From IMG/VR virus record IMGVR_UViG_3300031952_000033, positions 1 through 45,336 of that record: DNA of 45,336 nucleotides; one strand, given 5' to 3'. Origin of the DNA: a virus. Shown one piece after another: positions 12,205-45,336 of this stretch. Both the position numbers and the translations under genes were made by a program. Position 1 is the first letter of the stretch; each line of letters begins with the position of its first letter. The notes below the pieces were generated by a model. That model was given only the letters and a program-made list of their open reading frames with translations, made no database searches and had not been told where the DNA came from.

Positions 12205-12219
12205 TTCATATCACCTTTA

Positions 12220-17044: not shown

Positions 17045-17142
17045 ATTTTTATTCTCCTGTAATTTCAATCTACTACAAGCAGATCGCTTATAGATTCTAT
17101 CCTACTAATACTAATGTACACCAATGGATATAAGTATTACCC

Positions 17143-17153
17143 TATTATATAAA
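17143..17153 (-). promoter_or_regulatory. TATA-box promoter for the capsid gene
   Basis: On the minus strand the box reads TTTATATAATA. The predicted start of transcription is about 17120, leaving a leader of roughly 75 bases before the ATG at 17044. This 94-base gap after the fusion glycosyltransferase gene holds no reading frame. A dedicated promoter and long leader fit a strongly expressed late gene. Confidence 0.5.
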
Positions 17154-17162
17154 CCTTTAGAT

Positions 17163-18413
17163 TTAGATTCTATGTATTATAGCTACTTCCATTAAGCTTC
17201 TAGGGTCCACTGCTCCTATAGGCCTAGCATCATAGTTCCATATCTTATCTATTTCCTTAGAAGGTATCCCATAGTAGTATATCATAGCATTCAATAGTAG
17301 TTGGTCAGCTCCAAAGTTGCTATTATATTCTAAGTTCTTAGCTATATGTTCTTGTATAGTGAATATTAGCTTTGACGGTCCAACATATACTCCGGCATTA
17401 ATAATAAGCTTATTCTTAATCTCATCCCATACTACACCAACATCTGGTGGACCGGTATATTTTACCCAAGTACCATTCACTCTATTCTCAGTTACATAGC
17501 ATACCTTTTCAGTAGCTAGATCAAATAGTGGTTGTATAGGCTTACAGAATTCTATATCATTACCGTCTATTATTAGAATAGTCTCATACCACTGGTACAT
17601 ATACTTAAGAGCTTCCCAAAATGCCCTATGTCTATCACTAGCTAAACATTCATATACCGGTTTAGACTTAATTACTCTAACATTTGGCTTTTTACTTAAG
17701 ACATCTAAAGCATGCTGACTAAGATCATAGTCTATTACTAATATATCTCCATTATACTCACCTTTTCCTTCTAAGCTAGGTAAAAAGGTTCTTAATAGCT
17801 GACTATCCTTAGCTGTAGTAACTACTAGAGTCTTAGACTGTGTAAATGGTATTTTAGATATAAGCCATAGACCAAACTTAGTACCTAGTTTATTTAGTCT
17901 CCATTCAGTATTCTTATCTAGAAACTCTAATACTGCTTTAGAACTGCCAGCATCAGAACTAGACTCTACATCATGTATGAATATATTATCGGTTAGCTTA
18001 CTGTATATTCCTAGTTCTCTATGAACATGGTCGTAGCAGTGTACTGTATCTAAGAATATAAAATCATACTTTTGCTTAGTAACTGATTCCGGTGGATTTA
18101 GACAGTTACAATTTAGAAATTCTACATTACTAAACTTCATCTTCTCAAATCTTTCTAAGGCTAACTTAGTACTTCCATCTGGTACACTACCATTAAAAGA
18201 TATCGTCCACATACCATTATCCATAGTTATTAGCCTACCTTTATGGTTAAGCCTCATAGCAGTTAGAATACATACCGCTGCCCTTCCAGCAAATGTACCA
18301 GTCTCTAGTACTAATTCTGGTTTAGTTTCTAGAGTATAATCAAAGAGCTTCTGAATATACTCCCAGTCATCTATAACGGCTTCATACTGACTATTCATAA
18401 ACTTACTAAACAT
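17163..18413 (-). CDS. Bifunctional methyltransferase-GT8-like glycosyltransferase fusion
   Basis: Residues about 1-190 are a class I SAM methyltransferase of the CmcI/Methyltransf_24 kind: LVLETGTFAGRAAV (SAM loop, 35-48), LITMDNG, and FIFLDTVHCYDHV. Residues about 195-416 are a GT-A glycosyltransferase close to GT8: IIDGNDIEF as the metal-binding DxD-like site (283-286), NAGVYVG (339-345), DQLLLNA (370-376) and a C-terminal His414. The reading frame is open to 18515, but the first 34 codons overlap a cysteine-rich gene, so the ATG at 18413 is chosen. It may build a methylated glycan on capsid, fibre or DNA. Confidence 0.78.
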   Translation of the reverse strand: MFSKFMNSQYEAVIDDWEYIQKLFDYTLETKPELVLETGTFAGRAAVCILTAMRLNHKGRLITMDNGMWTISFNGSVPDGSTKLALERFEKMKFSNVEFLNCNCLNPPESVTKQKYDFIFLDTVHCYDHVHRELGIYSKLTDNIFIHDVESSSDAGSSKAVLEFLDKNTEWRLNKLGTKFGLWLISKIPFTQSKTLVVTTAKDSQLLRTFLPSLEGKGEYNGDILVIDYDLSQHALDVLSKKPNVRVIKSKPVYECLASDRHRAFWEALKYMYQWYETILIIDGNDIEFCKPIQPLFDLATEKVCYVTENRVNGTWVKYTGPPDVGVVWDEIKNKLIINAGVYVGPSKLIFTIQEHIAKNLEYNSNFGADQLLLNAMIYYYGIPSKEIDKIWNYDARPIGAVDPRSLMEVAIIHRI

Positions 18414-18417
18414 TTTC

Positions 18418-18546
18418 TTAACATCTATCTTCACGACTATCAGCCACCTTTTCACAATATTCTTTATAGTTACAATAACTCTCACATAGGCCATGAAACT
18501 TACCATAGTTACCAAAACATGGCGGTTTCTTATTAGGTGTCATCAT
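18418..18546 (-). CDS. Cysteine-rich miniprotein
   Basis: This 42-residue gene is not in long-ORF lists. It begins MMTPNKKPPC and has five further cysteines, including CESYCNYKEYC, a spacing suited to a zinc or Fe-S site. It ends 4 bases before the ATG of the fusion glycosyltransferase. Similar short 'PPCFG'-type cysteine segments are seen in uncharacterised archaeal and phage proteins. The function is unknown. Confidence 0.5.
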   Translation of the reverse strand: MMTPNKKPPCFGNYGKFHGLCESYCNYKEYCEKVADSREDRC

Positions 18547-18574
18547 TATATTCTTTTCTTAGTTCCTTAGTAAA

Positions 18575-19318
18575 TCAATACCTAAAGTCTACATATTCTT
18601 TATTCTTTTTCTTAGTCCAAGGCTTTTCATCGCGTGTAGTCCTAATGTAATCATGTAATAGTTTAGCAGTATTGTCTAATATTATTCTATATCCTAACTT
18701 CCTAGCCTTTAGGCAGTAACCATAATCTTCACTAGCCACCATATCTCCTATAGGATAAAAGTCTAAGTTTCTATCTTGAATAACCTTTCTACTTAAGCAT
18801 AGACAGCCACCACTTGTTATGGCTGGCATATCTACCGGTTTTATTACTTCATTCTGTTTCTTAAGTAAGTATTTATGTCTATCAGTTAGTATTCCCCATT
18901 TACTAGCTACGAATATACCTTCTGGATATATCCTAGTATAAGTCCCACCTACTATATTCTCACCATGACCAGTAAGTTTACTTATCATATCTGTGTCTAT
19001 AGGATAGACGTCATCATCTAGGAATATAGCATAATCCGGATCATACTGTCTTGCAGCTGTTAATAATAGCTGTCTCACATGGGCTATAGTATCATATACT
19101 GTAGTACCTACCTTAACGGCATCTTCCCTAAAGAACACTCTAATAATCTTGTACGGTAATTTATAGTTCCTAATGATATATCCTAAAGTATCATCTTTAC
19201 TGTTGTTTTCTAAAAAGAAGGTCATATCCGGCTTAGGATTCAAAAGGTGTATGTGGTAAAATAGTTTACCTAAGAACTTAGTACTATTATAAACCGGTAT
19301 TAGTAAGCATACATTCAT
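18575..19318 (-). CDS. Family 2-like glycosyltransferase
   Basis: The 247-residue GT-A enzyme has the nucleotide-binding start VCLLIPVYNS (3-12), the second block LENNSKDDT, the metal-binding FLDDDVYP (99-106), and the acceptor-side block VASEDYGYCLKARKLGY. It is full length. It lies between the ClpP-like gene and the fusion enzyme and is probably part of one glycan-building set. Whether the acceptor is a virion protein, a host surface polymer or modified DNA is not shown by the sequence. Confidence 0.82.
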   Translation of the reverse strand: MNVCLLIPVYNSTKFLGKLFYHIHLLNPKPDMTFFLENNSKDDTLGYIIRNYKLPYKIIRVFFREDAVKVGTTVYDTIAHVRQLLLTAARQYDPDYAIFLDDDVYPIDTDMISKLTGHGENIVGGTYTRIYPEGIFVASKWGILTDRHKYLLKKQNEVIKPVDMPAITSGGCLCLSRKVIQDRNLDFYPIGDMVASEDYGYCLKARKLGYRIILDNTAKLLHDYIRTTRDEKPWTKKKNKEYVDFRY

Positions 19319-21429: not shown

Positions 21430-21886
21430 TCTTCCTCTTCCACCTTCTTAATTTAGCGAATAATGCCTTTTCAGTAAGAACAACAGCACCATTAGATACA
21501 TTAGCTAGATGTATTAACCAAGGATGCTTAATATACTTTTCACTAGTAAGTATAAAGACTGGCTTCTTACACCACTTAGCACAGTAAAATATTTCCATTG
21601 AACATCCTATACTAGCTTCTTGAATATAGGCCACTAGTGCATCACACTTTCTAATCTTTTTTAAGTCCATATTAACTATATTCTCAGATAGGCCTGCACT
21701 ACTAATACCGTACTCTTTCATTTTACCAGCATCTATAAGAGCTACTTCTGGTCTATCCTTTCTAATACTACCATCCATATTATAGAATGGATTTAAGGTT
21801 TCTATTCCTAATGCTTGCAGCTTAGGACAGAAGTCATCTCGTATATGGTGCCTCATGTGTAGAAAGTGCGCTATGTATACCATCAT
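21410..21886 (-). CDS. Nucleoside 2-deoxyribosyltransferase-like protein
   Basis: The 158-residue protein has the Rossmann-like start MVYIAHFLHMR and the nucleotide-site end IGCSMEIFYCAKW, KPVFILT of the deoxyribosyltransferase family; the Glu in SMEI is the usual nucleophile. Members swap bases on deoxyribose or hydrolyse deoxynucleoside monophosphates. The ATG pair at 21886 overlaps the polymerase stop as ATGA. With the next gene it may recycle host nucleotides into viral DNA synthesis. Confidence 0.7.
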   Translation of the reverse strand: MMVYIAHFLHMRHHIRDDFCPKLQALGIETLNPFYNMDGSIRKDRPEVALIDAGKMKEYGISSAGLSENIVNMDLKKIRKCDALVAYIQEASIGCSMEIFYCAKWCKKPVFILTSEKYIKHPWLIHLANVSNGAVVLTEKALFAKLRRWKRKNETSKV

Positions 21887-24411
21887 TTTTTAATCAACCC
21901 TACTATTTTCTTTATCTTCTCTTCTAACCGTTCATAGATATGGTCCCAATTAATCTTATCTATAAACCATTTAGGTATTTCCATATCCTCTGTTATAGAT
22001 ATACCGGTAAGATGCATAGGATAATCTCTCCACTTCCATTCAGTAGGAAATATACTATCGTCAACAAATAATGTCTTTTGCTCTTTGTGTATTTTACCCT
22101 TAACTATAATAGGTAATCTTCTAGGCTTATCTCCTAACATAAATTCAGTATTAAGGTATGTATTAGAGTAAATAGCCGACTTGATATGTGAAGGCATTGT
22201 CTTTCTACCGTTCTTATCCAACTTAGGATAATCGGTTAGTTTACCTCTAATCTGTAATGGATACGCTACCTCTAATGGACTATATTCTTTAAGCTTAATC
22301 CGCTGTAATACTTCACTAGATATTAGACCTACCCGGGCGTATTCTTTATTCAGTACAGCTTTTACTATTCCTTCTACAGATACCTTCTCTATATCACTAC
22401 TATCAGACCTAATAGATTCTAAACCTTTAAAATCGTAGTCATCCTTATAGCCTTTCTTTTCATCCCAAAAGGACTTACCAGCGTAATTCTTCTTAGCTAT
22501 TAGTAAGAATGAATAATATATCTTCTTTAGTCCTAAACCAGAAGGAGCAGAAGGTAAACCATAGGTCTCTTTAAAGAACTTAGCTAGTTCTACATTAAGA
22601 TACTCCTGTAGTTCTTTACCCTCTTTGACAGCTGCTTCTTTATCTCTAGCCTTAAGTGGTACAAAGCTCGAATCTGTATCTCCATATACTAACTGATAAC
22701 CACAACCTTCTAGAATCTTAGCTATTTGCTCAATTCCTATCCTACCTAGAATAGCTGTAGCACCAGTACATTCTTGTCTATATAACCTGAATGATGGATA
22801 ATCCATTACTCCATAAATAGCATTAGTCATTTTCTTAATGTTAAATATCCTTCTATACCAAGCCTTAATCTTTATTTCATTTTTACTAGCAATAGCCGCC
22901 TTATAGTAAACTTCATACTCATCTCTTTTCTTAAAGAAAAAGTCTATAAGCTGAACCATTAGTCCTATAGGCCTCTTAACAAACTTGAATACCTTATCCT
23001 TATATGTAATAGTAAAGCATGGTCCCTTATAGTCCGGTTCTCTATATGTTTCTGGTGAAATATTAAAGGCCTTAATCAGTGATGGATATTCCCTATTAAA
23101 GTCAAACTGAGCTATATATTCATATTCACCCGGCTTAGGTTCTATTACTACCGCACCTAGTAAAGATTCTGTATTCTTAGCTGCTTTAAAGCTAGTCCTA
23201 AGAACTACCTTACCGTTTATGAATCTCATTAAGGCTGTATCTAATACCCTATAGTTAAGTAGTACCTCATGGAATAGAGCTCCAAACTCTTTCCTTAAGT
23301 CGTCAAACATTTCTACTAGTTCATATTTATCATCTAAAGCTTTTATAATTAGAACGTCATTAACATTCCTACTGAATAGTATTCCCGGTTCATTATCCCA
23401 TATCCATTGAGTAGGTTTCTTAAGTGGTATTTTCTCTATATTTAGACCTTCCTCTTCAGCTACTGCTCCTAGACTATATGATCTAAGCTCTGCATCTGTA
23501 AATCTCTTAAAGGCCTTAAGTAAGTCGAATAGTATTCTACCTTTAATCTTATACGGTAGTCTCTTCCAACTAAAACTAAAGAAAGGACTTAAGCCTTTAG
23601 GATCAAGATTATTAGCTTGCATCCTTTGGGTCCACTTTATTATATCGTACCGGTCTAGGTTCCAAGCAGTAAACAGATCCGGATCAAAGTCCTTTACCAT
23701 TGTTAATAGGGCATCTAGTAATAGTCCTTCTGTCTTACAAGCTAGAATAACATGGTTAGGTATAACCTTCTTAAACTCCGGTGGCTTTCTCCACTTACTA
23801 TTAATCACATACAAAGTATAAAGTGTATCTAAGTAGTTATCATAGAAGCTTACTATAGGTATAGATTCTTCTTTCTTAGGTCCAGATCCACACTGTTTAG
23901 TAGATAGGGCCTCAAAGTCTATAAACCACTTTCTAAGTTTAATATCCATATCTATCGGAATAAGTTTACCAGACTTTGTTATCTCTACTCCAGATTTTAT
24001 TTTCTTATCTATTAAGAACCGTATTGGTAACATTGTAGGAGTAGACAAGTCTCCTTCAAAGGTAAATACCGGTTCTCCAGCAGCAACTTTATTATACTTA
24101 TTCAAAAAGTGTATTAGACCAGTAACATACTTACTGTCTTTAAGGGTAATCTTAGTTAAAGCCTTCTTAGTTAACGTTCTAGCCTTAACACCTTCTACAT
24201 CTTTTAGGTACTTAGTAAGTGAATACTCATCTAAGTCCTTAATGAACTTGTAATCTTCTTCGGTAATATAAATATAAGGATAGTATCTATTTCTCCATAT
24301 CTTCTTATTTCCATCTGCATCCCGGCCAATAAGGACTACAGCTGGTATTTCTTGGCCTTTCTTATCTTTAGCCATTAATGTTTCGGCTGTTATTATTCCT
24401 ATCTTGGTCAT
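21883..24411 (-). CDS. polB: Family B DNA polymerase with proofreading exonuclease
   Basis: The 842-residue replicative polymerase is full length. Exo I is WFIDFEALS (Asp165, Glu167), Exo II NLDRYD (251-256), and Exo III NVND352. Polymerase motif A is DFNREYPSLI (437-446), motif B KKMTNAIYG (526-534), motif C VYGDTDSS (575-582), and the KKxY motif KKNY (640-643). Motif A has Arg where SLYPS enzymes have Ser, and the Exo III Tyr is replaced by Arg348, so proofreading efficiency may differ. No protein-primed (TPR) insertions are evident, so it should be RNA- or DNA-primed. Confidence 0.95.
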   Translation of the reverse strand: MTKIGIITAETLMAKDKKGQEIPAVVLIGRDADGNKKIWRNRYYPYIYITEEDYKFIKDLDEYSLTKYLKDVEGVKARTLTKKALTKITLKDSKYVTGLIHFLNKYNKVAAGEPVFTFEGDLSTPTMLPIRFLIDKKIKSGVEITKSGKLIPIDMDIKLRKWFIDFEALSTKQCGSGPKKEESIPIVSFYDNYLDTLYTLYVINSKWRKPPEFKKVIPNHVILACKTEGLLLDALLTMVKDFDPDLFTAWNLDRYDIIKWTQRMQANNLDPKGLSPFFSFSWKRLPYKIKGRILFDLLKAFKRFTDAELRSYSLGAVAEEEGLNIEKIPLKKPTQWIWDNEPGILFSRNVNDVLIIKALDDKYELVEMFDDLRKEFGALFHEVLLNYRVLDTALMRFINGKVVLRTSFKAAKNTESLLGAVVIEPKPGEYEYIAQFDFNREYPSLIKAFNISPETYREPDYKGPCFTITYKDKVFKFVKRPIGLMVQLIDFFFKKRDEYEVYYKAAIASKNEIKIKAWYRRIFNIKKMTNAIYGVMDYPSFRLYRQECTGATAILGRIGIEQIAKILEGCGYQLVYGDTDSSFVPLKARDKEAAVKEGKELQEYLNVELAKFFKETYGLPSAPSGLGLKKIYYSFLLIAKKNYAGKSFWDEKKGYKDDYDFKGLESIRSDSSDIEKVSVEGIVKAVLNKEYARVGLISSEVLQRIKLKEYSPLEVAYPLQIRGKLTDYPKLDKNGRKTMPSHIKSAIYSNTYLNTEFMLGDKPRRLPIIVKGKIHKEQKTLFVDDSIFPTEWKWRDYPMHLTGISITEDMEIPKWFIDKINWDHIYERLEEKIKKIVGLIKK

Positions 24412-24476: not shown

Positions 24477-25634
24477 TTAGTCCATCCAGCCGTCTATTGG
24501 TGTATCTTCTTTAATGCCTTCGTATCCTTGACCTTCTCTTGGTGTCGGTACGACCGCAAAGATTCCAGTTGCTTGTATATTAACGCCGCCATCCTCTAGT
24601 TCTTTCTCATCATTGTAGAACTTAGCTCTCTTAGTCTTACCAAAGACATAGACTTCACTAAGTTCACCAAAGTCTATCGCTATCTGCTCCGGTATTTCTA
24701 CTATTACTAGTTCATCTTCGTTATCTGGATTCATTAAGCCCATCTTAATGGTTCCATAGGCTGTAGGTCTATCAATTCCTAGCCAAGCTACTACACCCTT
24801 AACAAAGATTCTCCGGTCCCATGCATCTTTAAACTTCTCATGGTGGTCCTCTACTCCACTAATAGGAGTCCATTTGCCTTCCAAAGTAGCATCTATTACG
24901 GCTTTAATGTCTACATCTTCTTTGACTGCTTTGAATACGCTTAGAGTATCTTCAGCTGAACTGGAACCAAGCTTAATGTCGTCATCAACTTCTTCTTTGA
25001 TTATAGCAGATACTTGGCATGGTACGTAGTTCTTTACTTTGTCCCATCCTCTAGCTAGTCTGTTGTCGCTTGTCTGAATAGAACCGTACTTATAAGTTGC
25101 TTCTCCATTGTGTCTAAAGAAGCCATAAAGGGTACGTTCTAGTACGTGTAGTTTAGGATCAAGCACTTGTAGGTACTTAGGATTATCCCGGCCGTAAATC
25201 TTCTGTCTCTGGTCTAGGATACTACCATCACCATCTATAATTTGAGCTTCTATTGCCGCTTGTACACCGTTCTTATTCATGAACTTCTTTGCTGCCCTAC
25301 GGACCTGTTCTGCTTTGTCCCATATGCCAGCATCACCGCTAATGAATCCATAGATTATGGTTGTTTCTTTCTTCTTTTTCAATGGTGCATTCTGCATTAC
25401 CTTCTTTCTACGGTAGATGTTCATTACAGCATTCACTGCTACACGCTCTAGACTAACCTTGACACCTTGCTTCTCTAAGGATACTTTCTCCTCTTCGAAC
25501 TGCCCAACTATAGTATCTATAGGAACTTTGTTAGCTTTAGCCAAGACTATAAGACGGTCATATTCAACAGCATTCATTGTTGGAAGCACTTTTGGTGGTA
25601 AATCAGCTTTAACTACTTTATTTTTCTTAACCAT
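24477..25634 (-). CDS. Probable RPA-like single-stranded DNA-binding protein
   Basis: The 385-residue protein is soluble with long beta-rich stretches compatible with OB folds (about 90-200 and 275-360) and an acidic, Trp-containing C-terminus ending DTPIDGWMD, like the tails of SSB proteins. It lies just upstream of the polymerase gene. Its codon use (ATC/ATT, GTC, GAC) differs from neighbours and resembles the capsid gene, as expected for an abundant protein. It has a strong GAGGTGAT site before the ATG. I recognise no certain zinc motif of RPA, so the call is tentative. Confidence 0.5.
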   Translation of the reverse strand: MVKKNKVVKADLPPKVLPTMNAVEYDRLIVLAKANKVPIDTIVGQFEEEKVSLEKQGVKVSLERVAVNAVMNIYRRKKVMQNAPLKKKKETTIIYGFISGDAGIWDKAEQVRRAAKKFMNKNGVQAAIEAQIIDGDGSILDQRQKIYGRDNPKYLQVLDPKLHVLERTLYGFFRHNGEATYKYGSIQTSDNRLARGWDKVKNYVPCQVSAIIKEEVDDDIKLGSSSAEDTLSVFKAVKEDVDIKAVIDATLEGKWTPISGVEDHHEKFKDAWDRRIFVKGVVAWLGIDRPTAYGTIKMGLMNPDNEDELVIVEIPEQIAIDFGELSEVYVFGKTKRAKFYNDEKELEDGGVNIQATGIFAVVPTPREGQGYEGIKEDTPIDGWMD

Positions 25635-26165: not shown

Positions 26166-26783
26166 CTAGTCATCTTCCTTCACCTTAATTAGCATTTCTA
26201 AAGCTTCCTTCTTAAGTCCTTTTACTTCTAACAAATGTGTTTTTATATTAAAGAAGGACGCCTTAAATAAGTCTGGTATCTTATCCATTATCTTAGTAGC
26301 AGTTACCGGACCTATACCTCTAATACATTGAAGCATTGCTACTCTAATCTCTCTAGGAGTATCTGCTCTTATTACAGCAGCCGGTGGCAATCTACCACTT
26401 TTACCTACACCATACTTAGTGAATAGTGAAGCTATCCAACTGGCGGTATCCTCATGACTTCCACTAAATATAGTTTGGTACTTCCAGAATAGAATAATAG
26501 TTGTTAGTATTCCAGCTGTTAATCGGTCCCTATGTTCTATATCTCCTTCTATTAATAGTATTGGAGTAGTATAAGTCCTTCTCATAGTATCTAACTGGTC
26601 CCATAGATGTCTACTACCAGAACAGACTGAATTCACTAAGTCTGTAATAGTCTTTCTTTCTATAGCTACATCACCAAAGACATAATCTCCAGAACCTATA
26701 TGCTTAACTTCTACAGCTAGATTAAGCTTATTTAGAAGCTTTACTATTTCATTAGGTTCGCTCTCTGAGATAAAGATAGGCAT
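26166..26783 (-). CDS. XPF/ERCC4-type structure-specific nuclease
   Basis: The 205-residue protein has the ERCC4 nuclease core: GSGDYVFGDVAIERKTITD, with Glu42, Arg43, Lys44 and Asp48 forming the ERKx3D active site. A tandem helix-hairpin-helix follows at the C-terminus (RGIGPVTATKIM, then VKGLKKEALEML). It lacks the helicase domain of Hef, so it matches stand-alone XPF nucleases. It cuts branched DNA, such as forks, flaps and recombination intermediates, and probably works with RadA encoded two genes upstream. Start ATG overlaps the previous stop as TAATG. Confidence 0.88.
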   Translation of the reverse strand: MPIFISESEPNEIVKLLNKLNLAVEVKHIGSGDYVFGDVAIERKTITDLVNSVCSGSRHLWDQLDTMRRTYTTPILLIEGDIEHRDRLTAGILTTIILFWKYQTIFSGSHEDTASWIASLFTKYGVGKSGRLPPAAVIRADTPREIRVAMLQCIRGIGPVTATKIMDKIPDLFKASFFNIKTHLLEVKGLKKEALEMLIKVKEDD

Positions 26784-27323: not shown

Positions 27324-27497
27324 TTATTTACACCTCGGACATGGTATAGAAATATAGAAGTTTAATACTGGTGCCCTCTTATTCTGGTGTATTATGGTTA
27401 CTATTTTACTATTAAGACAGACCGGACATATACTGAATCCAGCCACTTCTATCTTCTCTGGTTTTGTTATTTCTGTTATCTTTGTTATTTTACCCAC
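27324..27497 (-). CDS. Small zinc-ribbon protein coupled to RadA
   Basis: The 57-residue protein has CPVC (24-27) and CPRC (53-56), a classic zinc ribbon. It starts at a GTG whose first base is the last base of the radA stop (TAGTG), so translation is coupled. The C-terminus is the second zinc knuckle itself. It may assist RadA or act as a regulator. Confidence 0.6.
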   Translation of the reverse strand: MGKITKITEITKPEKIEVAGFSICPVCLNSKIVTIIHQNKRAPVLNFYISIPCPRCK

Positions 27498-28642
27498 TAT
27501 CTAACACCGTCTATAAGGCCTTTAGCAGTAATACAGAATTCAGCAGTTGCTCTAGGTAAATAACTACTATCGTATAATGTGGCCTTCCAGAGCTCTACTT
27601 TTATTTGGCTTAATGCTATCCATGTATTTATACTATGTAAAACCAAATCGCCCCCGACTGGGTAAAACTGGTCTCCAAACTTCATCATGTTACCCAATCC
27701 TTGATCTGGTCTAGGTGCTGCTATAGTCTGACATGTAAGCACCCAAGCAGTATTATATCTAGCTTCTAGGTATTCTATTAACTGGAAGTGTTCTGCAAAT
27801 TCTCTAGTCCTTACTGGTAGCATTTCAGTTCTACTGTATCCAGCTCTAAACTTAGCATTGAAGCTGTCTACCACTATTAAGCGGATCTTCTCTCCGGCTT
27901 CTAGTTTCTTCTGTACTACCTTATATTGTAGAAACTGGGCTTTAGCTGTTGGTATTTGTTCTGCACCGCATATATATAAATCTTCCCAGTTACAAGTAAG
28001 TCCCTTTAGCCTAGCTATTTCTTTTAGTCTATCCAAATGGAAGCTGTCTGGTTCTGTTTCTATATATACGGCCTTTTCCTTTAGCCTACCTAAACAGTCC
28101 ACTATAATCTCATTACATATTTGAGTCTTACCTGTAGCAAACCTACCACTTAAGCCGGTACTAGACATGCTTGCTATTCCGCCACCTAGAAGGTTATTAA
28201 GAGCATTAGAACCAGTCTTTAAGAATATTTGTTTAGCTTTCTTATTTTTGTCTTGCTCTATAGCATTAATCATAACCATCTTAGCTAATACTCTTTCTTG
28301 TGCATATGTTACCCATGCTTTAGCTTGTGGATAGCCTACCTTCATTTCCGCTCCTATTTCATCTGCTCTACCAGTAGCTATACTAATAAGAGTAGAGTAT
28401 CCAAGTTCCTTAAGTCGTTCAGCTGTCTTAGGTCCAATACCCGGTATAGATTCTAGTCCTCTACCTTCTTCATCACTAACTTCAGCATCATGGTTAGCCG
28501 GTGTCTTACTATCTGTAGACTTCTCTTTCTTAAGGTCCTCTATTTTAGTTTCTACTTGAGTAGGTTCTGTAACTATTCCACCTTCAGTACCAGACTGTCC
28601 CTTAATATCTTCTTTATTCTTTGAACCTTTTGGACGACCCAT
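27497..28642 (-). CDS. radA: RadA/Rad51-family recombinase with N-terminal AT-hook
   Basis: The 381-residue protein mediates strand exchange. It has a helix-hairpin-helix DNA-binding domain (about 62-115, with SIPGIGPKTAERLKELGY), Walker A GRFATGKT (166-173), the RadA catalytic Glu region YIETEPDSF (193-201) and Walker B LIVVDS (255-260). The first ten residues, MGRPKGSKNK, form an AT-hook, absent from standard RadA; an acidic Pro/Thr-rich linker follows. It may recruit the protein to AT-rich viral DNA. Its neighbours are an HNH nuclease and an XPF-type nuclease, so this is a recombination-replication set. Confidence 0.9.
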   Translation of the reverse strand: MGRPKGSKNKEDIKGQSGTEGGIVTEPTQVETKIEDLKKEKSTDSKTPANHDAEVSDEEGRGLESIPGIGPKTAERLKELGYSTLISIATGRADEIGAEMKVGYPQAKAWVTYAQERVLAKMVMINAIEQDKNKKAKQIFLKTGSNALNNLLGGGIASMSSTGLSGRFATGKTQICNEIIVDCLGRLKEKAVYIETEPDSFHLDRLKEIARLKGLTCNWEDLYICGAEQIPTAKAQFLQYKVVQKKLEAGEKIRLIVVDSFNAKFRAGYSRTEMLPVRTREFAEHFQLIEYLEARYNTAWVLTCQTIAAPRPDQGLGNMMKFGDQFYPVGGDLVLHSINTWIALSQIKVELWKATLYDSSYLPRATAEFCITAKGLIDGVR

Positions 28643-29197
28643 TCATTTAACCTTCTTACAATCTTTACAAAGCTTCTTAAGTTTATCATTATCACAAGAA
28701 CAGTCTACATTATCTACAATATGTATCTCTTCTCTCTTTATTAACCCGGCCTTAAACCCATTATAGTATTCTTCTAGTTTAGCTTCCATTAGTAATTGAT
28801 AGTCCCTCATTCTAGACTCTATTGGTGCTTCTATAGCCGGATCATCATATATCTGTCCTTGTAAACTTAGTTTAAGCTTAATAGCATCTACTAGCCTTTC
28901 TATCGTGGCGCCAGCCAGTCCACCTTCAACACCCTTCTTAATTAGGGCATCTAGGTCGGTTACTATAGCTTGCTTCTGTAATTGTAAAGTTTCATATTGT
29001 TTAGCACCATGACAAGCTTTACATAGTAGTTGACAGTTCTCTTTACTGTTATTAGCATTATTACCGTCTTTATGGTGTCCATGGTAGCCATACATAAGAG
29101 ACTTACCACATTTACCACACATACCACCCTGTTCACCAAATACTTCCTCTAGTACCTTAATACTAAAGTTCTTTCTAGTATCTTCTTTATTTACCAT
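28643..29197 (-). CDS. HNH endonuclease
   Basis: The 184-residue protein has zinc knuckles CGKC (27-30) and CKAC (59-62) around a beta-beta-alpha metal site: YHGHHKDGNNANNSKENC, with His41/His42 and Asn49/50, then CH63. Residues 70-150 are helical. A further Cys cluster (CSCDNDKLKKLCKDC) lies at the C-terminus. It might cut or nick DNA for recombination, packaging or host DNA breakdown. It is not next to TerL as packaging HNH genes are. Confidence 0.8.
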   Translation of the reverse strand: MVNKEDTRKNFSIKVLEEVFGEQGGMCGKCGKSLMYGYHGHHKDGNNANNSKENCQLLCKACHGAKQYETLQLQKQAIVTDLDALIKKGVEGGLAGATIERLVDAIKLKLSLQGQIYDDPAIEAPIESRMRDYQLLMEAKLEEYYNGFKAGLIKREEIHIVDNVDCSCDNDKLKKLCKDCKKVK

Positions 29198-29619: not shown

Positions 29620-30420
29620 TTAACGGACTTCTGAATATTCTATCTTAAAGTTAACAGTGTACTTACCCATAACCGGAATAATCTTTAACACTGGACTACC
29701 TAATGTCGTTGGTTGGTAGGTTTTTTCTTCTACATAAGCCATTGGTCCTAAAGTATATCCTCTTAAGAAGCTTCCACCATATAGAAAGTGAGAGATTTTA
29801 TCATGTATCATTCCACCATCTATATATAGGCTAGTCTTTTTCTCTATTAGTCCTAAAGCATGCATATGGCCCATTATATACAAATCAAGCATAGGGAATA
29901 TCGCATACAGATCAAATACTCTATTTACTCTAGCTCCAGCAGTTCTTGCTCCACTCCAACCATGGTGTGTATAGATATTAAAGTTGCCCTTTTCACCCCT
30001 AAATTCATTGAAGTGTAATCTAACATATGCATCCATAGTTAAGTATTCTGTACCCAAGTTTCTAGATAGTTGCTGAACAAAGTTATAATTGTGTCTCTTC
30101 CAAAGATTATAGTCATGATTACCGTCTATTAATCCTAAGCATTTATTAGATATAGGTCTAAACATTTCTTCTATTGCATTAAATTGATCCTGTGGTGTCT
30201 TAAATTCCGGATCTTGACTATCATAGTTAAATCTAGGATCACTATTAGTAATACATTCTCCATAGTCTCCACCACCTAACCAGTAACAATTAGTTTTTTG
30301 AATATAGTCAATAACATTCTTCAGCATTGACTTATCACAGTTAATGTTTCCTAAGTGTATATCTGAAATATTTACTAATACTAGTTCTTTAGCCTTTACT
30401 TCAATCTTTGAGTATTTCAT
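29620..30420 (-). CDS. Calcineurin-like metallophosphoesterase
   Basis: The 266-residue enzyme has all metal-binding motifs: SDIHLGN (Asp20, His22), GGGDYGE (about 49-55), DGNHDYN (GNHD), THHG, and GHMH. Domains of this type include Mre11-like nucleases and phosphatases. It lacks the Mre11 capping domain and there is no Rad50-like ATPase in the window, so its substrate (DNA ends or a phosphoprotein/nucleotide) is open. Its ATG overlaps the stop of the SANT-like gene as ATGA. Confidence 0.85.
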   Translation of the reverse strand: MKYSKIEVKAKELVLVNISDIHLGNINCDKSMLKNVIDYIQKTNCYWLGGGDYGECITNSDPRFNYDSQDPEFKTPQDQFNAIEEMFRPISNKCLGLIDGNHDYNLWKRHNYNFVQQLSRNLGTEYLTMDAYVRLHFNEFRGEKGNFNIYTHHGWSGARTAGARVNRVFDLYAIFPMLDLYIMGHMHALGLIEKKTSLYIDGGMIHDKISHFLYGGSFLRGYTLGPMAYVEEKTYQPTTLGSPVLKIIPVMGKYTVNFKIEYSEVR

Positions 30421-34022: not shown

Positions 34023-34192
34023 TTTATAATCCTCTCTAAGCTATAATGTAATAGTGTATGAACTATAATACAAATAGGAGTAGTGAATATAGGAATAACA
34101 AAGGAACCGGTAGCTGCATAGACTATAGCATATTCAGAAAATACTGACAGTATCCTATAGATTATTACCCTCTTAAGTTTATTGCTTATCAA
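34019..34192 (-). CDS. DUF2061-like two-helix membrane protein
   Basis: From the TTG at 34192 the protein is 57 residues and closely follows the DUF2061 pattern: RVIIYRILSVFSEYAIVY, an ATGSF turn, then PICIIVHTLLHYSLERI. A GGTAGG sequence lies upstream of the TTG. The frame is open to 34258, but that would overlap the preceding gene by 80 bases. The function of the family is unknown. Confidence 0.5.
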   Translation of the reverse strand: MISNKLKRVIIYRILSVFSEYAIVYAATGSFVIPIFTTPICIIVHTLLHYSLERIIK

Positions 34193-34613
34193 AGCCAGTC
34201 CTACCCATCGCTGTAGAGCTCTTCCTTTCATTATAAGCCGTACCCACTTCACCATCAACCTTAAAGAACATCATCTGAAATATATCCTTATAGTTAAAGG
34301 TCTCATTCAAATGATATACTATAAAGGTAAGTTTACCACTGAACCCCGGATCTACTAATGGACTAAAAGAAGCATATACTTCATCTTGTATTACTGCTCT
34401 AGACCTTAAGCCTACTATACCAGCTACATTTCTAGGTAAAATGAAATGCTCCATAGATACTAACCTAGCTATATCATGCTTCCAGTCTTGTATAGTAGTT
34501 TCTATATCGTAGCTTACTGGTCCTAGATTCTTTCTTTGGAAGGGACATATTAAAGGCCTACCGGCTATAGCAAGTTCTCTAGCTAACTTCTCTATTTCAA
34601 TATCACTTAACAT
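34179..34613 (-). CDS. dcd: dCTP deaminase/dUTPase-superfamily protein
   Basis: The 144-residue trimer-fold protein has PVSYDIET, GLRSRAVIQ (uses the RSS/RSR motif, 69-72) and VDPGFSGKLTFIVY. Asp88 is the catalytic Asp shared by dUTPases. At the position of the deaminase Glu (E. coli Glu138) there is Ile98, so true dCTP deamination is doubtful; a dUTPase or dCTP pyrophosphatase is more likely. Start ATG at 34613 gives an 11-base overlap with the previous gene. It belongs with the ThyA-like and kinase genes. Confidence 0.75.
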   Translation of the reverse strand: MLSDIEIEKLARELAIAGRPLICPFQRKNLGPVSYDIETTIQDWKHDIARLVSMEHFILPRNVAGIVGLRSRAVIQDEVYASFSPLVDPGFSGKLTFIVYHLNETFNYKDIFQMMFFKVDGEVGTAYNERKSSTAMGRTGFDKQ

Positions 34614-35052
34614 TCCTTTTATTCTCCAGAAAACTACTATTATCAGTAACCGATACAACAGCTTTAGTTAGTAAGAACTTCTCAAATTCCGGTGTAATCC
34701 ATTTAAATTCACAATTACAACATTCAAAATACTCCACATCTGGTTTAAATGGATTCTTAGAATCAAATAGATCATTTCTATAAGTTTCAGAATGGGCAGT
34801 ACATCTACATCTAGGACAAGGGTTCGGATCTGGTTTCTGGTGATCTACACAATACTGACATCTATAATGCCAAATACCATGACTATCTTCATGTCCTTCT
34901 AAAGTATTTTGATCACATGCATAACATCTTCCACCAGAAGAACTTAACCTAGACCGCTTTGGAATCTTTATATTATTAGGCATAGGTTCATGTAATTTCC
35001 TAGCCTTCTCTATACCCATAGCCTTTGTATATAATCTACTTTCGTCAGTCAT
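34603..35052 (-). CDS. Multi-zinc-ribbon protein
   Basis: The 149-residue protein has CYAC, CQYC, CPRCRC and CCNC clusters, at least two zinc ribbons of the rubredoxin or transposase type, and conserved His residues between them. The ATG at 35052 overlaps the ThyA-like stop as ATGA, which ties it to the nucleotide metabolism set. No enzymatic motif is visible; it may bind nucleic acid or partner enzymes. Confidence 0.55.
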   Translation of the reverse strand: MTDESRLYTKAMGIEKARKLHEPMPNNIKIPKRSRLSSSGGRCYACDQNTLEGHEDSHGIWHYRCQYCVDHQKPDPNPCPRCRCTAHSETYRNDLFDSKNPFKPDVEYFECCNCEFKWITPEFEKFLLTKAVVSVTDNSSFLENKRNVK

Positions 35053-36038
35053 GGTCTCCACCGCTGTTCATATATCCTTCCTAAGTCAGTTATATTACTT
35101 CGTACATATTCATAAGAAGCTTCTTTACTTAGTACATTCTTTTTAAGCCTTAAGTTGTAAGCCATTATCATAGTCATTAGATTCTCATAGAAGTAGTTAT
35201 AAGCGTAATGTTTACCTTCTGGTATTCTAAAAGCTACAGATTCAAAGTTTCTCTTTCTACAGTTAGCCTCCCATAATGCTAAAGTATCTAGTGTACAGTC
35301 AAATTGCCACTTAGGCATTCTAGCATCATATATTATAGTAGCATCATAAATATTATGGTTATAGTCCTCTTCCACTACCTTTCTAGCCTTATCCCAATCC
35401 CTTTCGTAAAGATGTAAACTACCGTCTATATGAATATATCTTCCTAACTGCACACCTAACCAACCGGCCATTATTTCTTGGAACCATTGGAATTCTCCAG
35501 TATCATATATTAAGCCTAACCAAGCATCTTGACTTCTCATGGTTACTATCATGTCTAATAGATTATTCCTTAGTAAGAATTGGAAGCTTAAAGTACATGG
35601 ATAGTCTTTAGTTGGTAAAGTATGAAGTAAAGGATTATTAATAATTACTATAGCTTGTCTAGTATCTGGATCATGAATAAGCCTATCATAACATTGTTCT
35701 AACTGCTTACCTATAGCCGGTCCATAAGCTCCATCTAGTACACCGGTCTTTTCATTAACAAAGTTAGCCATTCCCGGTACATAATGTACTAGTCTAGCCG
35801 GTGCTGCTTCTCCCTTTAGTATCCACATGCCTTCTATGTAAGTAAATATCGGTACTTCTTTACGGTTAGGATGTCCAAATAGTCTTTGTCTAGGATCAAT
35901 AGACTCTATACATACCGGACTAAGTTCTCTAGTCTTTAAGCCCCTTGGACCAACTTCTTTACCTTCATCTAGAATCTTCTTTAGTATCTGTGTATATAGG
36001 TTTGGTATAGTACCATTCTCAAAGGTGATCAAGTTCAA
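35049..36038 (-). CDS. thyA: ThyA-family enzyme, probable dCMP hydroxymethylase (N-to-D)
   Basis: The 329-residue enzyme has the ThyA fold: EGMWILKGE, DTRQAIVI with the phosphate Arg127, catalytic Cys148 in KDYPCTLSFQF, RSQDAWLGLIYD (168-179) and LHLYERD (208-214). Asn177 of E. coli ThyA, which recognises uracil, corresponds here to Asp179. In T4 dCMP hydroxymethylase and in the N177D mutant, Asp at this place selects cytosine. So the product may be 5-hydroxymethyl-dCMP or 5-methyl-dCMP rather than dTMP. It overlaps the dNMP kinase and starts at a TTG (approximate). Confidence 0.82.
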   Translation of the reverse strand: MNLITFENGTIPNLYTQILKKILDEGKEVGPRGLKTRELSPVCIESIDPRQRLFGHPNRKEVPIFTYIEGMWILKGEAAPARLVHYVPGMANFVNEKTGVLDGAYGPAIGKQLEQCYDRLIHDPDTRQAIVIINNPLLHTLPTKDYPCTLSFQFLLRNNLLDMIVTMRSQDAWLGLIYDTGEFQWFQEIMAGWLGVQLGRYIHIDGSLHLYERDWDKARKVVEEDYNHNIYDATIIYDARMPKWQFDCTLDTLALWEANCRKRNFESVAFRIPEGKHYAYNYFYENLMTMIMAYNLRLKKNVLSKEASYEYVRSNITDLGRIYEQRWRP

Positions 36039-36612
36039 AATCTCCTATAGCGTTCAATATTTCTGAACATATATATTCTGGTGTATTCTTACTCATGTCA
36101 GTATGATAGACTAGGACTTCTAACTTTGTTTTAGTATAAGCCACTAAATATCTTGCTACTATAGCAATATATTCTCCTAGTCCTTTTAGATATTCCCCAA
36201 CTCTATTAGCAGTCCTATTGTAAGCTTCTTTAGGTTCTACAACAGTTAGTATAACTAATAGGACGTTTTCTCTACCTATCTCAGATATTAGCCTATCTTC
36301 TATAGTAAAGATTTCTTCAGCTAACCATATTGGATAGTCTCTTTTAACTATTCCATAAGCATATTCTCCTAGATGGAACCGGTCGCATATTATAATAGCT
36401 CTAGGATTCTTAGTTAGTATTTCCTTGAATATCTTTATACTAGCCTCATACTGGCCATAAGCTTCAGCTGCCTTCTGGAACATATCCAGTCCATGAGTAG
36501 GATATGAATAGTTTATTATGTGGGCCCGGTCTCCAAAATACTGCTTAAGTTTCTCTATTAAGGTAGTCTTTCCACTTCCATCAATACCCTCAATAATAAT
36601 TAATTTACCCAT
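36019..36612 (-). CDS. tmk: Thymidylate/deoxynucleoside monophosphate kinase
   Basis: The 197-residue kinase has the P-loop EGIDGSGKTT (8-17), the DRF motif CDRFHLGEYAYG, and a lid with NRTANRVGEY. It phosphorylates dTMP or a related dNMP with ATP. Given the overlapping ThyA-like gene with the dCMP-type active site, it may act on modified dCMP, as T4 gene 1 kinase does. The sequence cannot distinguish these substrates. Confidence 0.8.
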   Translation of the reverse strand: MGKLIIIEGIDGSGKTTLIEKLKQYFGDRAHIINYSYPTHGLDMFQKAAEAYGQYEASIKIFKEILTKNPRAIIICDRFHLGEYAYGIVKRDYPIWLAEEIFTIEDRLISEIGRENVLLVILTVVEPKEAYNRTANRVGEYLKGLGEYIAIVARYLVAYTKTKLEVLVYHTDMSKNTPEYICSEILNAIGDFELDHL

Positions 36613-36660
36613 TCTGTTTTTCTCTCCAATACTTTTCTATAGGTATAAGTTTATTCATAT

Positions 36661-36801
36661 CTACCACATTCTTATTTCATAATCCTCTAGAATCTTAGCT
36701 AGTAAAACTATTACATCTTCCGGTGTCAGATTACCTACATGACTCATAGAGACCTTCATCCTCTTTAGTATTTCTTCCGCATTCTTATCCAACATATTCA
36801 T
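36661..36801 (-). CDS. Small helical protein
   Basis: The 46-residue gene starts within the end of the uracil-DNA glycosylase gene and reads MNMLDKNAEEILKRM, then LTPEDVIVLLAKILEDY, two amphipathic helices. It ends in a 48-base gap before the kinase gene. Overlap with the upstream gene and helical periodicity support translation, but the function is unknown. Confidence 0.45.
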   Translation of the reverse strand: MNMLDKNAEEILKRMKVSMSHVGNLTPEDVIVLLAKILEDYEIRMW

Positions 36802-37363
36802 CTATCCTCTTTTTCATTAGTCTAAAGAAGGCTAAGTATTGAAGGGTTGCTTGGAACCCAAAACGTAGAACGTATGCGGGATGGTATAATACCTTAACCA
36901 AGCACCCTTCCCACTTATAATCTATATACACCGCCCTATTTAAAGGTTCTGTTATTCCAAACCAATTAGCTGCCGTCCTACCTAGACATACTATTACTTT
37001 AGGATTAACTAAGTTAATTTCTTCTCTTAGAAACTGCTTACAAGCAAGTATTTCACTATCTTCTGGCTTTCTATTATCTGGTGGATTACATTTAACAGTA
37101 TTAGTAATATATACATCATCATATCCATTAGGCCAGTTAGTGTATACACATTCTAAGAGTAAATCACTGGACCTATTACCTACAAAGGGTAGGCCTCTTA
37201 GTTCTGGATTCTCTACCTTTCCCGGTGCTTCACCTATGAACATTACCTTAGCATTTAGATTACCTAAACCCGGACACCGGTGTTGGCCTAAACCACAAAG
37301 TTTGCATCTTTTGCACTTACTTACTCTATCAATATAGTCTATAAACTTAGTATCTTTATTCAT
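36785..37363 (-). CDS. udg: Family 4 uracil-DNA glycosylase (Fe-S)
   Basis: The 192-residue enzyme removes uracil from DNA. Cysteines 17, 20, 92 and 108 match the four cluster ligands of UDGa. The active site has GEAPGKVEN (44-52), the NTVKCNPPDNRKP block (88-100) and HPAYVLR with His161. Family members in phages may also act in polymerase fusion or repair. It lies upstream of the kinase and ThyA-like genes, so uracil removal is integrated with pool control. Confidence 0.88.
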   Translation of the reverse strand: MNKDTKFIDYIDRVSKCKRCKLCGLGQHRCPGLGNLNAKVMFIGEAPGKVENPELRGLPFVGNRSSDLLLECVYTNWPNGYDDVYITNTVKCNPPDNRKPEDSEILACKQFLREEINLVNPKVIVCLGRTAANWFGITEPLNRAVYIDYKWEGCLVKVLYHPAYVLRFGFQATLQYLAFFRLMKKRIDEYVG

Positions 37364-37910: not shown

Positions 37911-38248
37911 TTATCTTCTACTCCTTCTAGATAAGTACAATGCTGACACTTTTTACCTTTAAGTACAGAATATACCCCAGTATTTTGTTTATCACATTCT
38001 TCTATACTAGAATGTGGACAACCTATAGATTCAGAATGCAATAAGCATCTTACTACAAATGTACTTTCCCAATCATCACCTTGCATATGTGCAAATAGTT
38101 CTCTAAATCTATAATCATCTTTTCCATACTTAGCTTCAAAATACTTTAAAGCATAACTAGCAGCTTCTAAATAAAGACTCTGTTCTACTGAACCATATTC
38201 ATAGACTTCAACAATTGCATAAGCTTCATTTATAGACTTGAATTTCAT
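37895..38248 (-). CDS. Hypothetical His/Cys-containing protein
   Basis: The 117-residue protein has a helical N-terminus (LYLEAASYALKYFEAKYGK) and a C-terminal cluster of His and Cys (CLLHSE, CPHSS, CQHC) suitable for zinc. I do not recognise it. Its ATG overlaps the methyltransferase stop as ATGA. Confidence 0.5.
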   Translation of the reverse strand: MKFKSINEAYAIVEVYEYGSVEQSLYLEAASYALKYFEAKYGKDDYRFRELFAHMQGDDWESTFVVRCLLHSESIGCPHSSIEECDKQNTGVYSVLKGKKCQHCTYLEGVEDKWKEK

Positions 38249-39033
38249 CTTTTACACACCCATAGTATATTTCTACTTTGATAGGGATGTTGTGAAGCAA
38301 AGACTACACTTAGAACCTCTGGAGCAAACCATGGTTTAAGGTTATCATATACTTCCCTTTCTGCCTCTGTTAATACTGGTTCTATATCCTTCTGGCTAGC
38401 AAATGTACCTATCATCTTCTCTATAATAAAGAACTTTTTAAGGTAAAGTTCTAATTCTATATCAGTATATTCATGTATATGGTTCTTAGCACTTCCAACT
38501 TTAGAATCATAGTTAGGTGTAGATAAGAATAATAGGCCACCCGGTTTAAGTACCCTTCTTATCTGGTTTAGTACATGGCTAATATACTTCTCTTCAAAGT
38601 GTTCTACTACTTCTAAGCAGACAGCAATATCATATTGAGGATACGCGGCAATACAAGGAATATCTTTATTCGGATCTTGAAGAATAGTTAACATACGAAT
38701 GGACGGTAAAGTATCAACTCTAATATCGCATTGATGTCCTATTACAGTAAAGTTAGTTTTAAACTCCATCATCTGTTCTATCATATTCTTCCTTATGTCT
38801 ACTCCTACATATAGGTTAGGCTTAAGCTTATTAGAATATAGGGACTTTAGTAAAGGAAAAGAACCACAGCCTACATCTATAATAGACATTCCTATCTTTA
38901 TATGTCTTAGTACATATTGCCATCTTAGACAGTGGGCAATATAATCCCTGTGTATCTGGTTTCTAGCCCAGCCTTGATAGGCTACCTTAGCAGCACATTC
39001 AGTAGTATTTATTGGTCCTAACCCTTTATCCAT
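38245..39033 (-). CDS. SAM-dependent class I methyltransferase
   Basis: The 262-residue enzyme has motif I IIDVGCGSFPLL (about 54-65), motif II VGVDIRKNM, motif IV LEVVEHFEEK, and the post-motif RVLKPGGLLFLSTPNYD, typical of Methyltransf_11/23. Such enzymes methylate small molecules, sugars or proteins; no DNA-methylase motif (such as DPPY) is present. It might modify a glycan or an unusual base. Neighbours do not decide. Confidence 0.8.
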   Translation of the reverse strand: MDKGLGPINTTECAAKVAYQGWARNQIHRDYIAHCLRWQYVLRHIKIGMSIIDVGCGSFPLLKSLYSNKLKPNLYVGVDIRKNMIEQMMEFKTNFTVIGHQCDIRVDTLPSIRMLTILQDPNKDIPCIAAYPQYDIAVCLEVVEHFEEKYISHVLNQIRRVLKPGGLLFLSTPNYDSKVGSAKNHIHEYTDIELELYLKKFFIIEKMIGTFASQKDIEPVLTEAEREVYDNLKPWFAPEVLSVVFASQHPYQSRNILWVCKR

Positions 39034-39523: not shown

Positions 39524-39673
39524 TTACTTATGCTCCTTCATTTCTATTTCCTTTTCTTCTAGGGCCCACTCAATAAGAGTAGTTAGGTCTATTAAAGATT
39601 CCGGTGTAATGCAGTGTTTAAGGAAGTATTCATGTACATTAGCCTTTAGTTCTTTAGACCATTTATTAGTCAT
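39524..39673 (-). CDS. Small helical protein after the topoisomerase-like gene
   Basis: The 49-residue protein reads MTNKWSKELKANVHEYFL and ends in a charged amphipathic helix (LIEWALEEKEIEMKEHK). It overlaps the end of the topoisomerase-like gene by eight bases. It is a short ORF in an otherwise open 142-base gap. It may be a small cofactor. Confidence 0.5.
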   Translation of the reverse strand: MTNKWSKELKANVHEYFLKHCITPESLIDLTTLIEWALEEKEIEMKEHK

Positions 39674-41288
39674 CTAGGCCCTCCCTTAGTCTCGGATCTT
39701 CTCTAAACCTTTCTAGTAAAGCTTCTCTAATCTTCTGGATGTCCTTTTCTTTAGCACCTATCCGCTTCTCTATAAGGTCATATCCATTAGGATTATAGTT
39801 CTCTTCATTATGGATAGGTTCAAACTTAGTATCTAGGATAGGTTCTGGTCCTTCATAGCCTTCCTTAGCACTAACTAAAGCCTCTTCAAACTCATCTAGG
39901 TTCCAGTTGGTTTCTATTTCAAACTGCTTCTTTATCTTATGTGCTATTGCTGCTAAGTCGTAACTAGCCCTCTTAGGGTCCTCTTCAAACTGCTTCCATA
40001 TATGGTACTTTATTTCTTTAGCACCAATCTCATCTAGAGCTCTTTCATAGGCCGGTAGCATATCCTCATAGATGTCCTTCTTAAGCTGCTCCTTTAGTTC
40101 TGTAAGCCAATGGTAGTAATCCCAAAAGAACTTAGGATAGGCTATTTTCTCATCTATCTCTCTCTTTAGTTCTTCCCTAGCAGCTTCATCAAATTCTGCC
40201 TTAAGCTTCTTATCATCCGGCATTGGCGGCTTAACCGGTATTCCAAATAGTCTCATATATTCTACTAGATAAATACCTAAGCCTATAGGTTCACCTTTAT
40301 TATTCTCAAACCCGGCTGATAGGCTTTCTAGTTCATAAGTCTTATCTCTACCCCAAGCATCATAGTCCAATTGGTTTAGTAAGCCATGGCTCATTAGAAA
40401 GTTTATTCTTTGCTGTACAAAGGGATTCTGTAGTGGCCTCTTTTGTTCTACATCATTAGCTAGTCCTAAGTTCTCTCCAATACTAGGATAGAATCCAGCT
40501 AGATATATCTTAGGATATTTCTTTGGTGGGAACTTATAAGCTAGGTGTCTACTTGCTTCCGTTCCAGCTTGAATAGTCCTTAGCATGTCTACTCCATAGG
40601 CATCTGCATCTGCTAGGAAGATCATATTTTTCTGGTCCTTAAACCTACTAGCCAGTTCCCATATTGCTCTGCTAAAGTTACCTCCCACAGTAACTATTAT
40701 GCTATTAGTAAATTCTGATAGGCCAAGCTCTACAATTCTGTTAGCCGCTGCATTCTTCTCTACTACTATGATGTTCTCACAAGCTCCACATTGCCATTCT
40801 TCCTCTTTCTCCGGCTTCATAATAGTTCTAGCTACTACTTCAGTAAAGGCTATTTTTCTTTCCTTATGTCCAAATACCGGTGAATGGAAGTAATATAAGA
40901 ATCCTTTACTTAAGTTCCCTATAGTGAAGGTATCCCGGTTAATATCACATAGTATTTCTAGGTCATTAATCGCTCCTAGTACATTAGGATAGATGTTATC
41001 TGGATTAGCTGTATTAAAAGGCTTAACTAGTTCTGGTGTAGTCCTTACTGTGTAGTAAAATTCTCTAAGTTCTCTTGGTGCCTTACCGCTTAGTATAGCC
41101 GCTGATATAGCCCTCTGAACCATTAAGGCCTCATACTTGATCTTAGCTTCTTTTTCTAGTAGAACAAAGCCAGTATCATCACTATAGAATTCTACATCTT
41201 TACCATTTACCTTTTGAGTCTCAGCTAGTTTTTTACTAATGAATTCTTTTCTTTTATCAGTATTCTTTATTTCAAATATCTTTACCAT
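39666..41288 (-). CDS. Topo VI-A/Spo11-like protein ('Mini-A') with long C-terminal extension
   Basis: The 540-residue protein has the winged-helix catalytic motif RELREFYYTVR with Tyr78/Tyr79, and a Toprim domain: IVVEKNAA with Glu177 and FLADADAYGVDM with Asp227 and Asp229, then GENLGL as in Topo VI-A. Canonical A subunits have 350-390 residues; here a charged, Trp- and Glu-rich extension of about 200 residues follows. A CGAC (167-170) precedes Toprim. No B subunit (GHKL ATPase) is in the window, so this fits the Mini-A group, which may cut DNA without ATP-driven strand passage. Replication initiation, recombination or host DNA breakage are possible. Confidence 0.82.
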   Translation of the reverse strand: MVKIFEIKNTDKRKEFISKKLAETQKVNGKDVEFYSDDTGFVLLEKEAKIKYEALMVQRAISAAILSGKAPRELREFYYTVRTTPELVKPFNTANPDNIYPNVLGAINDLEILCDINRDTFTIGNLSKGFLYYFHSPVFGHKERKIAFTEVVARTIMKPEKEEEWQCGACENIIVVEKNAAANRIVELGLSEFTNSIIVTVGGNFSRAIWELASRFKDQKNMIFLADADAYGVDMLRTIQAGTEASRHLAYKFPPKKYPKIYLAGFYPSIGENLGLANDVEQKRPLQNPFVQQRINFLMSHGLLNQLDYDAWGRDKTYELESLSAGFENNKGEPIGLGIYLVEYMRLFGIPVKPPMPDDKKLKAEFDEAAREELKREIDEKIAYPKFFWDYYHWLTELKEQLKKDIYEDMLPAYERALDEIGAKEIKYHIWKQFEEDPKRASYDLAAIAHKIKKQFEIETNWNLDEFEEALVSAKEGYEGPEPILDTKFEPIHNEENYNPNGYDLIEKRIGAKEKDIQKIREALLERFREDPRLREGLDD

Positions 41289-45260: not shown

Positions 45261-45336
45261 CTTAAATCACAGTACATCTACCATCACTATTCTATTTAAG
45301 CCTTCCTTTTAACTTGTACTACTAGAATACAATTCC
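45261..45336 (-). promoter_or_regulatory. Leading promoter of the early gene block
   Basis: Minus-strand reading gives a purine BRE-like stretch (AAAAGGAAGGC, 45300-45310), a TATA box (CTTAAATAGA, 45291-45300) about 33-40 bases before the ATG at 45260, and no gene. This is the cleanest BRE-TATA pair in the window. The gap continues across the window ends into 1-351 if the map is circular. Confidence 0.6.
45313..45336. repeat. Terminal direct-repeat elements
   Basis: The last eight bases (45329-45336, ACAATTCC) are identical to bases 1-8. CTTGTACTAC at 45313-45322 is identical to 227-236. Both suggest that the two ends of the window belong to one continuous non-coding region. An eight-base match alone could be chance or an assembly overlap. 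Confidence 0.45.

Follow-up and report, generated by a model that had tools for sequence, protein, structure and literature searches.

Spo11 is thought to have been derived from Top6A through loss of strand passage, and Topo VIII, a type IIB enzyme found on mobile elements, carries a GHKL (B) part. Topo VI, Topo VIII and the Mini-A proteins, the last defined by Takahashi in 2020, are said to be separated by a C-terminal motif. According to reviews, Mini-A is small and its function is not known (PMC8084294, PMC7614492), and it is a truncated Top6A homologue (PMC7614492); Topo VIII has also been reviewed (PMC7614492, PMC8185306). In the Top6A of M. mazei, DNA is cut by Y106, the metal site consists of E202, D254 and D256, and cleavage is restrained by a salt-bridge clasp, R102-E342 (PMC13040014); the roles of the catalytic-motif residues are also treated in PMC11922746. 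Topo VI-B binds the winged-helix surface of the A subunit (PMC13040014), and mouse SPO11 cleaves DNA without a partner in vitro (PMC11922746).

The window, i.e., the whole stretch of DNA analysed here, is a viral record 45,336 bases long. A tailed archaeal virus is indicated by its genes for a large terminase, a family B DNA polymerase (PolB), RadA bearing an HhH at its N-terminus, an ERCC4 nuclease of Hef/XPF type and a C5 methylase, and by its thymidylate genes. Bases 1–8 and 45329–45336 are identical (ACAATTCC), which is too short to be taken as a sign of circularity, and five tandem 60-base repeats (3851–4150) lie within the gene of a DUF2341 protein.

Positions 39666–41288 hold one intact gene on the minus strand, an uninterrupted ORF of 540 aa with an ATG start. 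The original prediction of a Topo VI-A/Spo11-type gene at this locus was borne out by the intact ORF and by a match to the Top6A/Spo11 Toprim family of Pfam (PF21180, E = 8e-10, over the family cut-off), with the strand corrected to minus. A plus-strand reading was ruled out, as the frame there is full of stops, and so was a chance ORF, since both the core and the C-terminal extension are conserved across viruses and nonsynonymous change is far below synonymous. The core (residues 1–352; 40233–41288, minus strand) comprises a predicted winged-helix region (5Y-CAP-like) and the Toprim region, as delimited by hhalign and VIA-align 2, and the extension covers residues 353–540 (39669–40232, minus strand).

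The NCBIfam model for Topo VI subunit A matched with E = 4.5e-13, far below the curated cut-off of this equivalog, so that the viral protein is a relative of Topo VI-A rather than an orthologue. A profile of the viral family matched solved Topo VI-A structures in the PDB (E 9e-7), and hhalign aligned residues 71–283 with Topo VI-A (E = 8e-8); before residue 71, no similarity to the Top6A N-terminus was detectable. With VIA-align 2, the six best chains were all Topo VI-A (Z 6.6–7.8, the next rows scoring about 5–6), covering model residues of about 126–350 and placing the end of the Top6A-like core near residue 350. Judged by these comparisons, residues 1–352 are the A-subunit core of a type IIB topoisomerase (Topo VI-A/Spo11). 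The full-length AF2 model (pLDDT 60) is weak over residues 20–164, with pLDDT below 50 over 20–152, around the catalytic tyrosine, and the winged helix at Tyr79 is predicted from sequence. A BFVD structure search returned nothing usable.

The catalytic tyrosine, Y79, is invariant and lies in an LRxxYY motif of the winged-helix type. The residues R75-E-F-Y78-Y79 (41052–41066, minus strand) are invariant in the viral family, Y79 corresponding to Y106 and R75 to R102 of M. mazei. The Toprim metal-binding glutamate E177 (40758–40760, minus strand) matches E202 and is conserved in the homologues covering the site, while the acidic pair D227-x-D229 (40602–40610, minus strand) matches D254/D256 and is invariant. 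Tyr79, E177, D227, D229 and Arg75 are kept in every homologue covering them, close and distant, down to 38% identity, and the claim that the YY motif (FYY; Y78, Y79) and the Toprim acidic residues are intact is therefore upheld. For the clasp residue E342, the best candidate is E319 in KTYELESLS (40332–40334, minus strand). It is invariant and matches WELDAL in Mini-A, making it the most likely counterpart, but the assignment is tentative because a MAFFT alignment of the core puts the E342 counterpart elsewhere.

The viral protein was originally read as a large Mini-A protein, and this assignment did not hold. In hhalign profile comparisons, Topo VI-A is the closer match (8e-8, as above, against 1e-5 for Mini-A), and Mini-A against Topo VI-A gives 6e-3. 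The NCBIfam Topo VI-A model recognises the viral protein but not the Mini-A of Pseudomonas phage NP1. A quick maximum-likelihood tree separates the viral family, Mini-A and Topo VI-A into three groups (SH-aLRT 98–99); being unrooted, with long branches and without bootstrap, it indicates separateness and not order of descent. Ten sampled Mini-A proteins are 295–343 aa long (NP1, 300 aa), in contrast to the 540 aa of the viral protein, and Mini-A is without the stretch between winged helix and Toprim. Mini-A was also supposed to be confined to a few mobile elements, but 77 phage records match NP1 Mini-A, so that it is less rare than had been thought. There are shared traits, for the Mini-A proteins of NP1 (gp49) and HCIV-1 (gp35) are likewise viral and without a B subunit, most Mini-A share the catalytic motif, and their xELDAL C-terminal motif is similar, the YELESL of the viral protein resembling the WELDAL of Mini-A. 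The NP1 Mini-A gene adjoins a Sak4/RecA gene.

Topo VI-A (PDB 2q2e, 9o0g, 1d3y, 2zbk) shares with the viral protein the LRExYY motif, the Toprim Glu and DxD, an uninterrupted Toprim layout and a core of about 350 residues. The viral protein differs in being virus-encoded without a B subunit gene, in its first 70 residues, which are not recognisably similar, and in its extra C-terminal domain of 190 residues. Spo11, likened here by description and not by sequence comparison, is also a Top6A-type cutter without need for strand passage, but it is eukaryotic, and to our knowledge no Spo11 has a C-terminal extension of the viral kind. Unlike Topo VIII, the viral protein has no fused or linked GHKL part.

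The approximately 200 additional residues of the original prediction are real, amounting to about 190, since the Top6A-like core ends near residue 350. No homologue with a complete C-terminus is without them. They evolve faster than the core, with identities of 0.51–0.77 where the core shows 0.60–0.87 (the most distant relative left out), yet are still constrained, pN being well below pS. Structure prediction of this part, suggested along with the original prediction, gave only helices (AF2 on the extension region alone; mean pLDDT 75.7, pTM 0.37) and no strands fitting a GHKL fold. The extension had no match in Pfam, in PDB sequences or, by Foldseek, in PDB structures. Its best Pfam hits were scattered (E 0.01–1) and differed between members, and a known domain was rejected. 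The best profile alignment with Topo VI-B lay in the stalk, but at E = 0.24 it scored no higher than column-shuffled controls, and a stalk mimic was rejected as well. The idea that the extension replaces the B subunit thus finds no support, given the all-helical prediction, the lack of a GHKL match and the shuffled controls; the extension is no ATPase. Its acidity (48 D/E against 33 K/R) argues against a plain DNA-binding domain and so against an obvious binder of the viral origin, as had also been proposed. A third proposal, a link to the replisome, would be compatible with an acidic helical interaction domain, and an interaction domain would be the simplest reading.

The predicted absence of a GHKL partner was confirmed in the window, where Pfam searches with working positive controls found no HATPase_c, HATPase_c_3 or Topo-VIb_trans, excluding a GHKL domain either fused or separate. 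The same three families, with positive controls, revealed no GHKL/Topo VI-B gene in six related viral contigs of 42–69 kb, with HATPase_c_3 the sole B-type family searched in the contig of L013 (G007). In three of these relatives, G001, G003 and G007, the first 32, 127 and 71 bases, respectively, recur at the end, and the sequence of a near relative (G002) continues through the G001 junction, overlapping by 32 bases. IMG/VR classes these related records as linear, but their repeated ends and the read-through make G001, G003 and G007 look like complete circles, and since they are apparently complete, the absence of a B subunit there is meaningful. Neither of the two findings named beforehand as refuting the original prediction, a B subunit in a longer assembly or a catalytic Tyr that varies among close homologues, was thus made.

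Three genes are common to all seven records compared, namely the Topo VI-A-like gene, PolB (21883–24411, minus strand, as are all genes given in this paragraph) and a dCTP deaminase-like gene (34179–34658). The RadA/Rad51 recombinase with its N-terminal HhH (27497–28642) and the ERCC4 nuclease with HhH, of Hef/XPF type without helicase (26166–26783), are present in six of the seven; no match to either was found in the most divergent relative (G005). In most records, the Topo VI-A-like gene is followed by genes for a SAM methyltransferase (38245–39033; the downstream neighbour in 5/7), a uracil-DNA glycosylase superfamily protein (36785–37363; E 2.2e-30, and synteny), a thymidylate kinase-like protein (36019–36612), a ThyA-like thymidylate synthase (35049–36038) and the dCTP deaminase. 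The structural module of the window (1025–19318) differs from those of G001–G007, with terminase and capsid-region genes mostly not shared, and the terminase, capsid and tail region appears to have been swapped and moved, while the early set has been kept. Together with the constant presence of PolB and dCTP deaminase and the conserved downstream order, this places the gene in the replication and nucleotide module and not in an accessory region. No MCM helicase scored over the cut-off.

Other genes of this region deserve mention. The glycosylase, deaminase-like, thymidylate kinase and ThyA genes (34179–37363) suggest active control of uracil and thymine in viral DNA. Beside PolB in 6/7 records is a gene for a 385-aa protein (24477–25634) for which Pfam and PHROG gave no match and NCBIfam no convincing one, a candidate for an unknown replication factor. 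An HNH endonuclease gene (28643–29197, minus strand) adjoins RadA, and close by is a gene for an Mre11/SbcD- or DP1-like phosphoesterase (29620–30420, minus strand; PHROG 7339, 'DNA repair exonuclease', E 8.9e-31; NCBIfam DP1 weak), which, if active, could remove covalent protein from 5′ ends. BLAST found no relative of it in the other records. When all seven records were searched with Metallophos for an Mre11-like partner, nothing was found and even this weak phosphoesterase of the window was missed, so the search says little about the relatives.

The family is small, comprising about a dozen viral loci and two Guaymas MAG contigs. The protein had no tblastn match among INPHARED phages and PLSDB plasmids and none in PHROGs, and rescanning IMG/VR with the extension and with the region after the Toprim yielded just one further partial relative. 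A search of 389 genomes from the phylum to which the Thermoplasmata MAG belongs found no cellular copies beyond that MAG itself, where the gene is frameshifted. Relatives (L010, L011, L083 and L085) are in contigs binned to Thermoplasmata and Kazan MAGs from the same Guaymas site, and these bins probably hold viral contigs. Upstream of the gene of a distant relative (L009) are two DRAT-type ADP-ribosyltransferase-like genes (6124–7641 and 7967–9094).

We infer that a lineage of tailed archaeal viruses may have acquired the cutting subunit of a type IIB topoisomerase and added a helical domain at its C-terminus. The reading we prefer, although it falls a little short of probable, is a homodimeric and reversible DNA-cleaving enzyme that works without a viral B subunit and supplies breaks or nicks for recombination-coupled replication. 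By analogy with Top6A and Spo11, two copies would dimerise, each Tyr79 would attack one DNA strand while E177, D227 and D229 of the partner's Toprim hold the metal, and cleavage would leave the protein attached to the 5′ ends. Retention of Arg75, for which E319 is the candidate partner, suggests that the break would be restrained and reversible. As the virus encodes no B subunit and hence no ATPase to drive strand passage, a controlled breaking or nicking enzyme is likeliest. Its breaks or nicks may feed the viral RadA, Hef/XPF-type nuclease and PolB in early replication, and the acidic extension may dock the enzyme to a partner.

The main rival is a hybrid topoisomerase, somewhat unlikely in our estimate, in which the viral A subunit would combine with host Topo VI-B for ATP-driven relaxation or decatenation and the extension would retarget the complex to viral DNA. 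Archaea generally encode Topo VI (PMC8185306), and a search of 12 archaeal genomes found Topo VI-B in each. The R75 position and the rest of the active site have been retained, as would be expected if the enzyme were a reversible gate, and decatenation would profit circular viral genomes. Against such pairing, the dissimilarity of the first 70 residues to the Top6A N-terminus is weak evidence, as it does not cover the winged-helix surface for Topo VI-B. The preferred reading is favoured by the homology, the conserved active site, the lack of a B gene, the co-occurrence with PolB, dCTP deaminase, RadA and ERCC4, the lack of an MCM helicase over the cut-off, the Sak4/RecA neighbour of NP1 Mini-A, the partner-free cleavage by mouse SPO11 and purifying selection on core and extension. 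Against it, the B subunit could come from the Topo VI-B of the host, RadA lies 11 kb away, outside the cluster of the Topo VI-A-like gene, co-occurrence with recombination genes is equally expected of any replication gene, G005 gave no RadA or ERCC4 match, and the AF2 model is weak where the winged helix is predicted. A further reading, which we regard as unlikely, is a B-independent, Spo11-like viral break maker that starts recombination-dependent replication with the virus's own RadA and Hef/XPF nuclease, and is controlled by the helical domain instead of B.

A weapon directed at the host, cutting or titrating its DNA or poisoning its Topo VI through mixed A dimers, is quite improbable. Exchange of A-subunit dimer partners is conceivable and would not need a B subunit, and Top6A-like Toprim dimers also act as nucleases in defence systems (PMC13040014), but the presence of the gene with PolB in 7/7 divergent records, inside a nucleotide and replication set, would be unusual for an accessory anti-host gene. 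Very improbable is an enzyme of Rep or resolvase type that processes an origin or ends site-specifically, its extension choosing the site. The repeated contig ends of some relatives suggest circular DNA, and none of the annotated genes could be recognised as a known initiator, helicase or primase, but the extension is acidic and helical, and Top6A-type enzymes cut with little sequence specificity. The original reading, a genuine Mini-A protein that has gained a domain, was already disfavoured and is extremely improbable; viral encoding, the missing B subunit and an xEL[DE][AS]L motif near the core end are common to both, but the profile distances, the separate clades (SH-aLRT 98 each) and the failure of the Topo VI-A model to detect NP1 Mini-A all speak against it.

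The virus and its relatives thus encode a relative of the enzyme that starts meiotic recombination, and in this protein the cutting site is intact, a tail of 190 residues has been added and a partner gene is lacking. The combination of an intact Top6A-type cutting site, the lack of a B subunit in the records seen and a family-specific added domain makes these viruses an independent natural experiment in a Spo11-like step, and their protein is a good test of whether a Top6A-type cutter works alone outside eukaryotes. If a host B subunit is borrowed, the result would be a hybrid topoisomerase of viral A and host B, of which we know no example. If cutting is independent of B, the family would make break control accessible in a small and tractable system and reveal a new viral way to prime recombination, and if the protein is indeed a break maker, it would represent, in minimal and non-eukaryotic form, a counterpart to the machinery initiating meiotic recombination.
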